Virus record (IMG/VR): IMGVR_UViG_3300047318_000447
Span: 1 to 48,604 of that record
Direction: 5' to 3' (one strand)
Length of the DNA stretch: 48,604 bases
Source of the DNA: a virus
Shown: positions 30,781 to 46,820 of the stretch, piece by piece
How the letters are laid out: every line of letters starts with the position of its first letter
How positions within the stretch are numbered: the first letter of the stretch is position 1
Program-made: the position numbers and the translations under genes
The notes under the pieces: model-generated
Told to the model about the DNA's origin: nothing
The model's database searches: none
The model's input: the letters and a program-made list of their open reading frames with translations, nothing else

Positions 30781-31086
30781 GTGACTCAGAATCAGGCTCC
30801 CGCGATCACCACCGAGCACCTCGAAGCCCTGCGCGCCTTCGCCGACACCATCCAGAGCGAGGCCTACACGGAACCCTCCGGGCCCACGTCGCGCCGCGCC
30901 CAGCGCCTGTTCGGCACGCTCGTCTTCGGATCCATCGGCTACCTCTCCGCAAGCCTCAACAATCGCCCCTCCTGGCACGAGAGCGACGACCGACGCTGGT
31001 GGCTGCTGCTGCAGGTCGTCGACGTCTACAAGGACCGCCCCGACTTCCCCGAGAGCATCCGCCCCTTCCTCGACACCTCGGAGTGA
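30781..31086 (+). CDS. Hypothetical protein upstream of integrase, 101 aa
   Basis: GTG start without Shine-Dalgarno, 10 nt after a -10 element. The protein is acidic, helical, with EHLEALRAFADTIQS, an LFGTLVFGSIGYLSASLNN hydrophobic stretch, and a Trp-rich RRWWLLLQVVDVY segment. No HTH or zinc site is visible. The ATG of the integrase follows 2 nt after its stop, so the two are co-transcribed. It may modulate integration (for example as a directionality or accessory factor), but this is inference from position only. Confidence 0.6.
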   Translation: MTQNQAPAITTEHLEALRAFADTIQSEAYTEPSGPTSRRAQRLFGTLVFGSIGYLSASLNNRPSWHESDDRRWWLLLQVVDVYKDRPDFPESIRPFLDTSE

Positions 31087-37707: not shown

Positions 37708-38274
37708 CTACTCCAGGGTGTAGGCGGTGAGGATGGCGGTGTACCGGTCGTGGGCGTCGCTGTGGGGTGCGCCGAGGTTGTCGAGGGTCTGCAGGGCGGT
37801 GCGGGCGGCGGCGGTGATGGCGGTGCGGGTGGCCCAGGTGGGGTCGGTGACGGGGATGGTGCCGGCTCGGGCGCATTCGGCGACGTAGGCGTCGACGCTC
37901 TGGATGGTGGCGTGGGCGGCGCGGTGTCCGGTGGCGGCCTGGTAGTACATGGCGATGCGGCGGCGGCCGCGTTGGTCGAGGAGGTGGGACCAGAGGTCGT
38001 GGTCGGAGGCGCGGCGGGTCCAGCCTGCGGGGAGGGTGGCGGTGCGGAAGAGCGGGTCGCGGGGGTCGATGGGGCCGAGGATGAGGCCGAGGGCGCGGTA
38101 GTCGGCTTCGCGGCCGTCGAGGTCGGCGGGCAGGCGGTTGGAGTGGACGAGCTGGCGTTGGCCGGCCTTGTCCTGGGCGGCTGCTTCGGCGGCTACGGCG
38201 CCGGGGCCCATGGTGTCGGCGAGTAGGAGGAGGGTGGCGGTGGGGCCGCTGCCGGTTTCCAGCGGGTCGCGCAT
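37708..38274 (-). CDS. Hypothetical protein, first gene of leftward operon, 188 aa
   Basis: ATG 38274 behind CAGGAG. The internal block GLILGPIDPRDPLFRTATLP, W-T-R-R-A-S-D-H-D-L-W-S-H, and RRRIAMYYQAATGHRAAHAT is a pattern found in many phage genomes without assigned function. A compact, mostly helical domain follows. The candidate leftward promoter lies upstream at 38425-38453. Likely an early gene product. Confidence 0.6.
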   Translation of the reverse strand: MRDPLETGSGPTATLLLLADTMGPGAVAAEAAAQDKAGQRQLVHSNRLPADLDGREADYRALGLILGPIDPRDPLFRTATLPAGWTRRASDHDLWSHLLDQRGRRRIAMYYQAATGHRAAHATIQSVDAYVAECARAGTIPVTDPTWATRTAITAAARTALQTLDNLGAPHSDAHDRYTAILTAYTLE

Positions 38275-38304
38275 ACGGGCTCCTGACGGGTCGTGAGACG
38301 GATC

Positions 38305-38380
38305 TTCCGTTTCCCCGGAACTTCGGTCTATACTGGCCACCTCGTTGGACCGTCACCAAATACTGGCGTCGGTCCTTTTT
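38305..38380 (+). promoter_or_regulatory. Promoter-attenuator cassette, copy A
   Basis: TTCCG-N6-CGGAA dyad (38305-38320), -35 TTCCGT (38305-38310), -10 TATACT (38329-38334), 18-nt spacing; start near 38341. About 6 nt later begins an intrinsic terminator: GGACCG (38347-38352) pairs CGGTCC (38370-38375), then TTTTT. A transcript of about 40 nt should result unless terminated RNA polymerase is released from the hairpin. A collinear copy lies at 44288-44363. On the minus strand the same -10 area also reads TATAGA. Confidence 0.6.
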
Positions 38381-38424
38381 GCGTTCCTGGGCGGCGTCGG
38401 AGGTGGCTCCGGCGGCGTGTCCTC

Positions 38425-38453
38425 ACCATAGACCGAATCTATTGCACATGCAA
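38425..38453 (-). promoter_or_regulatory. Candidate leftward promoter TTGCAT-N17-TATGGT
   Basis: On the minus strand TTGCAT (38453-38448) and TATGGT (38430-38425) are 17 nt apart, a good vegetative match, with start near 38418. It would drive the leftward operon that begins at 38274. The -35 and spacer lie inside operator 1, so bound repressor should block it. Confidence 0.5.
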
Positions 38454-38461
38454 TAGATTCG
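38434..38461. promoter_or_regulatory. Operator 1: 28-bp dyad with 13-bp perfect arms
   Basis: The arm CGAATCTATTGCA (38434-38446) is perfectly inverted at 38449-38461, with CA between. It is distinctly AT-richer than the surroundings and covers the leftward promoter. Its core recurs at 38516-38527. Confidence 0.75.
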
Positions 38462-38515
38462 TGTCAGAGTGGCTCCACCGGGGCCTGCGGCCCCATCCGG
38501 CATGCGGGCTATCAC

Positions 38516-38527
38516 TTGCATGTGCAA
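38516..38527. promoter_or_regulatory. Operator 2: TTGCATGTGCAA core, related to operator 1
   Basis: The 16-nt string TTGCATGTGCAATAGA (38516-38531) is shared with the reverse complement of operator 1. Centres of the two operators are 74 bp apart, close to seven helical turns, so two dimers could be joined on one DNA face. It lies 22-100 bp before the two possible starts of the next gene. Confidence 0.7.
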
Positions 38528-38626
38528 TAGAGAACCGGAGACACTGACGTGGACAGGACCCGAACGCGCCCCCCAGGAAGGCCCCACCCCTCGGAGCGGC
38601 GCGCACCGCCGAATCGAGGACACCGA

Positions 38627-39160
38627 GTGCCACAGCCCGAGCGAGCGAAGAACCCGAGCCAGCGCGACCAGGTCCGGGAGGCCATCGCCGCCCTGCGCGC
38701 CGGCACCAGCCCGCGCCCCGACCTCGCCGACGCCGTCGACAAGTTCTTCACCGCGGTGACTTCGCCCAGGCAGAGCGAGACGGTCCCCATGTACCTCCCC
38801 AAGGAGACCTGGCGCCGGGCCGAGGAGAAGGCGACGCAGGAGGGCCGCAAGCGGGCCAACGTGATCGAAGAGGGGTACACCGAGTTCCTCGCCGGCCGCT
38901 GGCTCCCCACGCGCTGGCCCCGGGGCCGCGTCACCGACGCCGAGGCGGGCCCCAGGATCACCGCCAGCATCAGGGTCAAGACCGACCGACTGCGCGAGCT
39001 GGAGGAGTACGCAGCCGCCAACCCCGCGCTAATCGGCTGGGAGCCCTCGCCGGCGCAGGTCGCCGCTGCATGGATCAAGCAGTACGTCGACGCGGAGCCC
39101 GTCGCCCCTCGAAGCAAAAGCCGCCAGGCTTCCAGGCCCGGCAAGTCCCAGGCCGAGTAG
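38627..39160 (+). CDS. Candidate tandem ribbon-helix-helix regulator
   Basis: From GTG 38627 (GAGGA upstream; a GTG at 38549 would add 26 low-complexity residues) the protein has 177 residues. Two segments have strand-helix-helix form: VPMYLPKETWRRAEEKATQE and GYTEFLAGRW, then ITASIRVKTDRLRELEEYAA with QVAAAWIKQYVD, as expected of two RHH units in one chain. It lies directly downstream of the twin operators. A role as their binder and as a repressor of the leftward and its own genes is inferred. Other DNA-binding or partition-type proteins are possible. Confidence 0.5.
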   Translation: MPQPERAKNPSQRDQVREAIAALRAGTSPRPDLADAVDKFFTAVTSPRQSETVPMYLPKETWRRAEEKATQEGRKRANVIEEGYTEFLAGRWLPTRWPRGRVTDAEAGPRITASIRVKTDRLRELEEYAAANPALIGWEPSPAQVAAAWIKQYVDAEPVAPRSKSRQASRPGKSQAE

Positions 39161-39172
39161 CCGACACGGATC

Positions 39173-39202
39173 CTCGGCCTGGTCCGCCGACAGCAGGCCG
39201 AG
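39173..39202 (+). terminator. 9-bp hairpin after the candidate regulator
   Basis: CTCGGCCTG (39173-39181) pairs with CAGGCCGAG (39194-39202) around a 12-nt loop. No U-tract. It lies between the regulator stop (39160) and the next ribosome binding site (TAGGAG), so it may lower transcription into the recombination gene. Confidence 0.5.
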
Positions 39203-39245
39203 ATCCCGTGGCCATCACCATCACAGTCCTGTAGGAGACACACCC

Positions 39246-40265
39246 ATGGCAGGCCATCAGGCCGCCGGCGAAGCCGGTGGCTTCCCCCAGCACACCCAAA
39301 ACCCGCCCCCCCACACCCCCGCGGCCACGCTCGCGCCGCTGAGCGCCGAACAGCTCGCCGCCCTCCAGCGGTTGCGTGCGCCGTTCGCCGCCGAGCAGGT
39401 CTCCAGCCGACCCGAGATCACCTGCCCCGCCTGCGCGGACGGCAAGCACGGCCGCTGCGCCGAGCACGACAAGACCGTGTGCCCCGTCTGCGGAAGTTAC
39501 GTCACCACCGCGCACATCGACCTCGACTACGTCGGGCACGCCGAGATCACCGGCCGCCTCCTGGACGTCGACCCCCTCTACTCGTGGGAACCGATGGCCC
39601 GCACCGCCCGTGACCTGCCGCTCCTCGACGAGTACAACGGCCTGTGGATGACCCTGACAGTGTGCGGCGTCACCCGCTACGGCTACGGCGACGCCTCACG
39701 CCGCGGCATGAACTCCACCTCCGTGAAGGAGATCATCGGCAACGCCCTGAGGAACGCCGGCATGCGCTTCGGCATGGGCCTGGAGCTGTGGAAGCCCGGC
39801 GCCCGGGCCGCCGTCGAACCGTCCGAGGCCGCGAAGATCTGCGAGCGCCTCGACGAGAAAGCGGTGTGGAACACCCCGAGGGCCCTGGAGGAGATGCGAC
39901 GCCGGGCCCGCAAGGCCGGCGTGCTCGGCCACGTCGTGGAGAGCGCCGGATGGCGCACCATCGGCGAGGTCATCCAGGACCGCCTCGCCATGCTCGCCGA
40001 GCCCACCGCGCGAGACGCCCGCGCCGAGGGCCCGCGCGAGGTCACCGCCGCCGACGCGCTCGCCGCCAAGGTCGACGCGGGCTGGGGCAACGTCATGGCC
40101 TGCGAGCAGACCCTCGCCGAGGCGCGCCACCGCCACCTCGCCGACACCCCCCACCCCGGCGACGCGCAGCGCCGCTCATTCGCCCAGGTGCTGGGCGAGC
40201 GCATCGCGCAGTTGCGTGAGGAGCGCTCCGGCCAGGACCGGCACCCGGACGCGGAGGTGGCGTGA
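39246..40265 (+). CDS. Candidate Rad52/Sak-like single-strand annealing protein
   Basis: A 339-residue protein, ATG behind TAGGAG. An N-terminal zinc finger (CPACADGKHGRC, CPVCG) precedes the conserved core, with HAEITGRLLDVDPLYSWEP, NGLWMTLTVCGVTRYGYGD and KEIIGNALRNAGMRFGMGLE. The last block (K-E-x2-x-D/N-A-L-R-x-A-x-R-x-F-G) is the hallmark seen in Rad52/Sak-type annealing proteins. The C-terminus is helical. It would anneal single strands in phage recombination and repair. Assignment is by pattern; ERF or RecT-like families are less fitting. Confidence 0.55.
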   Translation: MAGHQAAGEAGGFPQHTQNPPPHTPAATLAPLSAEQLAALQRLRAPFAAEQVSSRPEITCPACADGKHGRCAEHDKTVCPVCGSYVTTAHIDLDYVGHAEITGRLLDVDPLYSWEPMARTARDLPLLDEYNGLWMTLTVCGVTRYGYGDASRRGMNSTSVKEIIGNALRNAGMRFGMGLELWKPGARAAVEPSEAAKICERLDEKAVWNTPRALEEMRRRARKAGVLGHVVESAGWRTIGEVIQDRLAMLAEPTARDARAEGPREVTAADALAAKVDAGWGNVMACEQTLAEARHRHLADTPHPGDAQRRSFAQVLGERIAQLREERSGQDRHPDAEVA

Positions 40266-45512: not shown

Positions 45513-46820
45513 ATGCAGCACACCGTGCCGCGCGTCGACTCCGACGTGCCCTCCGGCACCCCTTTCAACCCGAATGTGGCCGCCGACACCCCCTCCGCGC
45601 GCCCCCGAAGCGCCGTCCGGCGCCCCTGGACGCCCGACCCGAGCCAGACCGTCGCCCGCACGACCTCCCGCCACAGCGGCCCTCGGGCCTGGCGCCGCGC
45701 AGCAGAGCGGGCCCTGGAGGCCGGCCTGGTCCCGGGTGCGAACGCCGTCACCACCGTGGTCCTCGAGGACCTCGCCCGCCGCATGGACTACAGCACGGGC
45801 CACGTCCGGTACTGCCTCGCCGACACGATGGCCTCCACCGACCTCTCCCGCTCGACCGTCACCAAGCACATCAGACTGCTGCGGTCGGCCGGCTGGCTGG
45901 CCTGGGCGGAGCACGGCTCGCTGCGCAACGTCCTGCGGGGCCTGGGCCGGCCGGGGTACGCGCCCACGGCGACGGTGTACGCGGCGACGATCCCGCCGGC
46001 GTTCGACACCTGGGCGGGCAACCGGCTCGGCGGCGTCGGATACTCCGCCCGGGTCGTCGGAGCGACGGCGCGGGGCCGGGAGCAGCGGGTCGCGGAGGCT
46101 GTGGATAACTCGTCGCGGAAGGCTGTGGACAACCCGGCTAAACGATCTTCGCGGACCCCTTCCCTTAGGGTGGTTAAGGAGGAGGGTCAGGTTCAGGTAG
46201 TAGGTGGTTCTTCTACCGCGAAGCGGCAGCGAAAGACGACCATCCTCGGCAGCATTCCCACCGCCGACGCCGTCGCCCGGGCCCGCCGGCTCGCCGCCGA
46301 GATCCGACCGCTCGTCAACTGGCTCCAGAAGGCCAGCCGCCGACAGCTGTCCTGGGTGCTCCTCGACCTGGTGCTGATGGGCTGGGACGACCAGCGGATC
46401 CTGAACTGGGTGCGCGCCGCGACCCCCTACAGCCGCTCCGGTCAGGGCGTGTGGCGGCCCCGCTTCCCCCACCGGGTCCTGGCCGCGGCCCTCCTCGGTG
46501 AGGACCAGGACGCGCGGCGCATCGCCGACCTGGAGGCCCTGACCACCGCGGCCGTCGCACCGAAGGACCACGAGGCGTGGGGTGAGGTCTGGCGGACCTG
46601 GCAGGAGCAGCTCGCCGACAGCACCGAACCGGAGCGCACGGACGAGGACCGGTGCCAGGCCCGGGCCTACGTCACCAGCGGCTCCAGCCGGGCCTGCGGA
46701 ACCCTCGCCGAGGTCACCGGGCACATCGCCGTGTACGGCCTCGACGACGCCCTCGACCTGTACGGCACCCACCTCTGCTCCCTCGCGGAGCGCATGGACG
46801 CGATCGGAGCGTACGCATGA
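45513..46820 (+). CDS. Replication initiator-like protein with internal DnaA boxes
   Basis: A 435-residue protein, ATG behind GAGGAC. Residues about 70-135 form a winged helix (VVLEDLARRMDYSTGHVRY, STVTKHIRLLRSAGWLAW), the binding domain of phage and plasmid initiators. A low-complexity linker (190-250) contains the repeated AVDN motif encoded by the DnaA boxes. The C-terminal half is helical (RQLSWVLLDLVLMGW, RILNWVRAATPYS, HRVLAAALLGEDQD). The arrangement (binding domain, origin in the linker, helical partner domain) resembles lambda O. Replication initiation is inferred; related proteins occur in Streptomyces phages. Confidence 0.7.
   Translation: MQHTVPRVDSDVPSGTPFNPNVAADTPSARPRSAVRRPWTPDPSQTVARTTSRHSGPRAWRRAAERALEAGLVPGANAVTTVVLEDLARRMDYSTGHVRYCLADTMASTDLSRSTVTKHIRLLRSAGWLAWAEHGSLRNVLRGLGRPGYAPTATVYAATIPPAFDTWAGNRLGGVGYSARVVGATARGREQRVAEAVDNSSRKAVDNPAKRSSRTPSLRVVKEEGQVQVVGGSSTAKRQRKTTILGSIPTADAVARARRLAAEIRPLVNWLQKASRRQLSWVLLDLVLMGWDDQRILNWVRAATPYSRSGQGVWRPRFPHRVLAAALLGEDQDARRIADLEALTTAAVAPKDHEAWGEVWRTWQEQLADSTEPERTDEDRCQARAYVTSGSSRACGTLAEVTGHIAVYGLDDALDLYGTHLCSLAERMDAIGAYA
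46091..46134 (+). other. Candidate replication origin: two DnaA boxes in a tandem repeat
   Basis: TGTGGATAA (46100-46108) is the exact complement of TTATCCACA, and TGTGGACAA (46124-46132) of TTGTCCACA, the Streptomyces DnaA box. Both lie in two near copies of a 24-bp unit (CGCGGAGGCTGTGGATAACT and following). The next 80 bp (46139-46225) are the least GC-rich of the gene, a possible unwinding element. Confidence 0.65.

Follow-up and report, generated by a model that had tools for sequence, protein, structure and literature searches.

Two related palindromes, O1 and O2, in the divergent early control region of a linear virus record are best read as operators of a phage-encoded repressor, most likely the predicted tandem ribbon-helix-helix (RHH) protein encoded at positions 38549–39160. 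The probability of this reading, which is drawn from sequence comparison, is estimated at roughly three in four. The window, that is, the whole stretch of DNA analysed, is a virus record of 48,604 bases with 71% G+C, classed as linear and possibly a fragment. The features discussed are:

37708–38274, minus strand: first leftward gene, 188 amino acids, ATG at 38274–38272 with AGGAG upstream
38425–38453, minus strand: predicted leftward promoter, TTGCAT (38453–38448), 17 bp, TATGGT (38430–38425)
38434–38461, no strand: putative operator O1, a 28-bp palindrome whose half-sites TTGCAC and TTGCAT would double as the two −35 boxes; a counterpart occupies the corresponding position in 34 relatives
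38442–38470, plus strand: predicted rightward promoter, TTGCAC (38442–38447), 17 bp, CAGAGT (38465–38470), CAGAGT being a 2-of-3 match
38512–38531, no strand: putative operator O2, TCACTTGCATGTGCAATAGA, an imperfect palindrome with a 4-bp spacer as in O1, ending 17 nt 5′ of the start codon
38537–38551, plus strand: ribosome site (GGAG) and start codon (GTG) of the candidate repressor gene, in a context, GGAGGAMACTGGCGTG, that is conserved in relatives
38549–39160, plus strand: candidate repressor, 203 amino acids, predicted single-chain tandem RHH protein with strands at residues 76–84 and 136–144
39161–39245, plus strand: region between the RHH and annealing-protein genes, predicted hairpin with the inverted repeat 39165–39181/39194–39210
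39246–40265, plus strand: single-strand annealing protein gene (PHROG 3290, E = 2.5e-43), next gene of the rightward unit

Putative operators and predicted divergent promoters

O1 has the sequence CGAATCTATTGCA-CA-TGCAATAGATTCG, with perfect 13-bp arms around a 2-bp center, and contains 39% G+C versus 71% in the genome. It is the longest perfect close inverted repeat of the window, and arms of 13 bp were reached in one of 40 first-order Markov simulations. The position and arms of this dyad had been described in the initial annotation and were confirmed, as was a related site at 38516–38527 (TTGCATGTGCAA), which proved longer than stated and extends over the whole of O2. The 16-nt core said to be shared by the two sites is exact in inverted orientation, where the 16-mer TTGCATGTGCAATAGA in O2 matches the minus strand of O1 at 38438–38453, and agrees at 14 of 16 positions in direct orientation. 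With up to three mismatches allowed, the 16-mer matches the window at O1 and O2 only (0.04 matches expected). No further copy of TTGCAYRTGCAA with up to one mismatch occurs anywhere in the window, and a third operator site was not found there. The case for operator function is made more strongly by comparison with relatives than by the simulation of arm length.

Two predicted promoters stand back to back here, and each half of O1 would supply the −35 box for one of them, a feature absent from the initial annotation. A sigma-70 consensus scan gave no promoter at 38200–38700, and the proposed boxes rest on comparison among relatives. A full TANNNT is located 16–19 bp from the TTG-box of O1 on the rightward side in 31 of 35 genomes and on the leftward side in 22 of 35, the window among these 22, against 4.5% in shuffled sequences. 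With only two exceptions this distance is 17 or 18 bp. The dyad lies near −30 of both predicted promoters, a position suited to repression.

We infer that the RHH protein binds to O1 and silences both promoters. A repressor on O1 would cover both −35 boxes, so that a single binding event would shut off the leftward gene together with the rightward RHH/recombination unit. The two −35 boxes adjoin each other and should leave no room for two polymerases at the same time, which would make O1 a two-way switch even in the absence of a repressor. O2, which closely precedes the ribosome site within the 5′ leader of the rightward unit, may be an additional site, weaker or acting later, that contributes autoregulation or a roadblock to transcription; its distance to O1 is not constrained. 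The RHH protein would also be expected at further operator-promoters belonging to other units, and would in this way control a small regulon.

The initial annotation placed these sites between leftward and rightward early operons. The rightward side is indeed a recombination/replication unit, while the leftward side is one unit, whose first gene varies among relatives. Behind the leftward promoter of the window and of the relatives L122–L147, at least three kinds of genes without evident similarity are found: one encoding a WYL-domain protein, one a basic protein of 112–119 residues, and the window’s own, for which no match was found among the first leftward genes of relatives. The leftward gene is disfavoured as the repressor gene, with at least three dissimilar kinds occupying its place. 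Two other elements were observed in this area. An inverted repeat, TTCGGTCTAT/ATAGACCGAA, is present at 38322–38331 and 38429–38438, one of its arms overlapping the leftward −10 region while the other falls within the leader. At 38346–38381, the plus strand reads GGACCG...CGGTCC followed by TTTTT, a terminator-like hairpin in the leader of the leftward unit that was not listed by the terminator scan.

Conservation in Streptomyces phage-plasmids

The protein encoded at 38549–39160 gave weak tblastn matches in six Streptomyces plasmids of 85–93 kb, including pCQ3 and pCQ4, which share gene order with the plasmid-phage pZL12, and the pCQ4 protein as query retrieved 30 plasmid records of 85–102 kb. 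Another 20 records were added, with extra loci located through a conserved start-region pattern and a profile search. The comparison set contains 35 sequences, the window and 34 relatives, some of them near duplicates, and 28 remain below 75% protein identity. No phage record matched the window protein by tblastn or in the related-locus search with this protein alone, and a degenerate 16-mer scan of viral contigs gave unrelated matches only, among those inspected.

Its genes and their order mark the window as distantly related to the Streptomyces phage-plasmids pZL12 and pCQ4. Common to phage-plasmids of this type and the window is the order integrase, leftward unit, divergent operator region, RHH, annealing protein, WhiB, HTH gene and DciA, with window homologues in this order at 30999, 38549, 39246, 40262, 45513 and 47098. 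The integrase of the window is 61% identical to that of pZL12; the remaining window genes match weakly or in few relatives. Phage-plasmids of this type are extrachromosomal replicons of ~85–102 kb; the window is a 48.6-kb virus record, classed as linear and possibly a fragment.

A search for the same dyad in related phages had been suggested, and a counterpart of O1 was found in the same divergent region of the 34 relatives, where the presence of the RHH gene beside it is partly by construction since the loci were found through this gene or its start region. A recognisable O2 is present in about 30 of the 35 sequences, just 5′ of the ribosome site and often with ATGGC as its left half; it was not identified in pCQ4, L142, L144 and L153. 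The earlier proposals of paired operators at a divergent early control point and of a symmetric binding protein as their reader are supported. Where the intergenic regions were read, O1 usually has the form ATTGC-N3 to N5-GCAAT with genome-specific flanks. The end of the O2 core is 18–20 nt from the start codon in 24 of 25 sequences read, while the 25th gave 26 nt from a site entered only in part. O1 and O2 agree in spacer length (3, 4 or 5 bp) in 22 of 25 sequences, a figure to be weighed knowing that the sites were read by eye and partly by matching the expected spacer. In pZL12 the spacers are mixed, with 4 bp at O1 and O2 and 3 bp at the other sites.

The centers of O1 and O2 (38447.5 and 38521.5) are indeed 74 bp apart, as first reported, and this distance had been taken to mean helically phased sites suited to looping or cooperative binding. 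According to this explanation, repressor dimers bound at O1 and O2 touch over a seven-turn loop and the phase is required. The 74 bp of the window correspond to 7.05 turns and several relatives have 74–77 bp. However, among the 26 genomes with both sites the spacing ranges from 53 to 84 bp, that is, from 5.05 to 8.0 turns of 10.5 bp, and spacings of 5.5, 6.5 and 7.5 turns occur. A Rayleigh test shows no conserved phase (R = 0.27, p about 0.2). Ten of the 26 genomes fall within 0.15 turn of a whole turn, against an expectation of 30%. Loops of 53–84 bp are also stiff, and O2 was not identified in pCQ4. The window’s value seems to be one within a broad range; phase-dependent looping is not supported, and a phased pair is very unlikely.

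The distance from O2 to the start codon, in contrast, varies by 1–2 nt while that to O1 varies by tens of bp, which favors O2 being a translational operator or hairpin in the mRNA, locked to the ribosome site. Such a role is nevertheless unlikely: in most O2 sites one half does not pair fully with the other (ATGGC against GCAAT), so that a hairpin would be weakened, and the spacer agrees with that of O1 in most genomes. As a separate observation made by eye, inverted repeats of the GGCGU/ACGCC type span the RHH start codon in many relatives; some of these seem to carry compensatory changes (GGCAU/AUGCC in L132 and L140), and the window lacks such repeats.

Sites matching the operators also occur elsewhere in the relatives and were missed by the initial annotation. 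Scans of 24 complete records gave from none to eight sites per genome and pattern, and the reversed-pattern control gave 0 in all 24. A strict scan of 16 complete genomes identified 82 sites, O1 and O2 included, of which 74 were called intergenic by a simple codon-composition gene caller that assigns 80–87% of each genome to coding sequence; O1 and O2 account for six of the eight remaining sites. In 23 complete genomes, 69 sites remain when O1 and O2 are excluded, and 49 of these have a −10 element on exactly one side and none on both, compared with 3% per side in shuffles. Part of the remaining 20 sites represent other motif types (the AGTG group of pCQ4 and the GAC group of W09/W17). The sites of one genome usually share flanks and spacer, and under strict patterns no dispersed sites were found in W08, W13, W14 and W19. 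All six dispersed sites of two records with annotation are located in gaps between annotated genes; the flanking genes were looked up in these two records, and the label “early” rests on them and on the O1 neighborhood.

Most relatives have several operators at predicted phage promoters; the window has only O1 and O2. The other sites of several relatives are found at least 13 kb rightward of O1, which would place them past the end of the window. That the window lacks a third site is for this reason not read as evidence either way. The pCQ4 record also has, at 75115–77525 (L179), four copies of AGTGATTGC-N3-GCAATCAC, a palindrome cluster unlike the operators, possibly partition or replication sites.

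Identity of the probable binding protein

The gene at 38627–39160 named in the initial annotation is retained as the source of the candidate binder, but its start is probably not at 38627 but at GTG 38549, since the ribosome site and the N-terminus are conserved from there in relatives. The protein model contains two β-α-α units in one chain, predicted with high confidence, and by prediction these units pair through their strands as in the ribbon-helix-helix superfamily. The best PDB match is the F-plasmid TraY (Z = 8.2), followed by DndE with a lower score and AvtR (5.2); Z for the best match is only about 8, and the Foldseek E is 0.025. The protein belongs to no Pfam or NCBIfam family and has a weak Arc-like PHROG match (E = 0.039). 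Homologues of 275–311 residues (L154 8328–9197, L148, L152, L153, L156) look like fused pairs, and one longer homologue, of 290 residues, is predicted to contain four RHH units.

The strongest link between this protein and the sites comes from pCQ3 and pCQ4, whose 188 reciprocal ORF pairs, spurious ORFs included, have a median identity of 92%. pCQ4 carries four operators of the CTCCATTGC type and none of the pCQ3 type, while pCQ3 carries four of the CGTATKGC type and none of the pCQ4 type, one chance-like match with four mismatches having been set aside. The operators are at orthologous places, with flanks about 82–87% identical in three aligned cases. The RHH proteins are 51% identical and differ at both predicted base-contact positions. 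The other DNA-binding candidates are nearly the same in the two elements: the 182-residue zinc-ribbon protein 95%, HTH_17 94%, WhiB 97%, the product of the HTH gene related to 45513–46820 95.5%, and that of the leftward gene 94%. The RHH protein is the only diverged one among the candidates compared, and the exclusion of rival binders covers these candidates rather than every gene; the neighboring annealing-protein gene has also been exchanged (29%), and ten ORF pairs in all are below 55%. At the level of sequence, the two elements represent a natural experiment in which the operators switched together with the divergence of the RHH protein. This switch and the associations of strand residues described next are what points to specific binding by the RHH protein.

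Analyses across the whole family do not point to one gene. Strand residues 82 and 138 of the RHH protein rank 2–7 of 147 columns for association with the operator flank, an association that is confounded by ancestry and in which positions away from the strands, such as 180 and 91, score equally high. In the family-wide column association the RHH gene is 10th of 64, behind, among others, the 182-residue protein gene and the HTH_17 gene, and a Mantel test across genomes did not single it out. The zinc-ribbon protein, or the adjoining small excisionase-like HTH_17 protein, encoded upstream of one dispersed site, might accordingly be the binder. The 182-residue family is present in 23 of 23 complete relatives, and the association of both proteins with operator flanks is no weaker than that of the RHH protein. 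Either assignment is nonetheless quite unlikely given their 95% and 94% identities between pCQ3 and pCQ4, whose operator sets differ completely; the search used here also retrieved the HTH_17 gene from no more than 15 relatives.

Host repressors, too, commonly use palindromes that overlap −35 boxes, and a host regulator could be imagined to bind those found here. Such a regulator is the least probable of the binders considered, since flank and spacer vary between phage-plasmids and agree within a genome, although the named records all come from one host genus. A use as partition or replication sites (centromere or iterons) in place of operators would fit elements that replicate as plasmids. 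RHH proteins can also be centromere binders. TraY binds oriT (PMC12117103). The sites are, however, scattered singly at −35 positions of predicted promoters, and a ParA gene is located elsewhere in both records inspected, which makes this use highly improbable.

The RHH protein being the likely repressor, its role in the phage cycle is less clear-cut. It may maintain lysogeny (immunity), or act as a lytic-phase autoregulator, Arc- or Cro-like, that damps the early genes while another protein silences the prophage; the odds between the two roles are about even, and the second, though somewhat short of an even chance overall, fits nearly as well. P22 Arc is an RHH protein that acts in this manner, and the RHH gene heads the rightward recombination/replication unit, behind the promoter that it would repress. 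Against an autoregulator, pCQ3 and pCQ4 have four sites each and other genomes have several, spread over the genome at promoters, which resembles the set of a master repressor, and the RHH and annealing-protein genes are set apart by a gap in which a hairpin is predicted. In relatives (L122–L147) this gap is about 75–110 nt long, and hairpins were obtained in 12 of them folded singly (z from −0.7 to −3.5); their apical stretch, similar to GACGCCGACA, hardly varies. No consensus for the gap was obtained with RNAalifold, and Rfam had no match in 37–41 kb.

Comparison with known repressors

P22 Arc and Mnt are phage RHH regulators that act on palindromic operators at early promoters, as is proposed here for the RHH protein; they differ in being single-RHH proteins that act at one region, in contrast to a tandem RHH protein with scattered operators. 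The region of the window can also be likened to the lambda OR, where CI and Cro act on paired operators between divergent promoters at the lysis/lysogeny switch. Unlike lambda OR, a single palindrome here would hold both −35 boxes, and the spacing of the sites is not conserved.

TraY is a monomer with the RHH dimer fold within one chain (PMC12117103), the same arrangement as that predicted for the candidate repressor, whose best structural match it is. TraY is a relaxosome protein, while beside the RHH gene of the window no relaxase gene was noticed, none having been specifically searched for; the four units predicted for one longer relative are a further difference. The cluster A mycobacteriophages L5 and Bxb1 likewise have a phage-specific set of repressor sites at several places of the genome, and the motif varies between related phages along with divergence of the repressor (PMC6550527, PMC9283540). 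Their stoperators, however, are 13-bp asymmetric sites found mainly in one orientation relative to transcription, and stop elongation (PMC6550527, PMC9283540), unlike the palindromes of ~20–31 bp found here, usually a handful per genome, which overlap predicted −35 boxes. A stoperator system does not fit these sites, which are palindromic and mostly at predicted promoters.

Operators of phage repressors are already known; a tandem-RHH repressor with scattered palindromic operator-promoters, and with both −35 boxes in one palindrome, would be a variant that was not found in a brief literature search. The same open-access search, which did not extend to the founding pZL12 paper, returned no paper on the repressor of these phage-plasmids. 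For the clade of Streptomyces phage-plasmids as a whole we tentatively propose, at somewhat less than even odds, that a single-chain tandem RHH protein of two or four units serves as the early master repressor and acts on genome-specific palindromic operators that double as −35 boxes. An exchange of the repressor gene, such as that between pCQ3 and pCQ4, would be followed by matching changes in the scattered operators, giving each genome its own operator or immunity type.

O1 would offer a compact two-way promoter design, and pCQ3 and pCQ4 provide a case of a probable repressor and its scattered operators changing together between otherwise very similar genomes. The operators form a short and explicit set that can be read in most of these genomes, so that immunity groups among dozens of Streptomyces phage-plasmids could become predictable.
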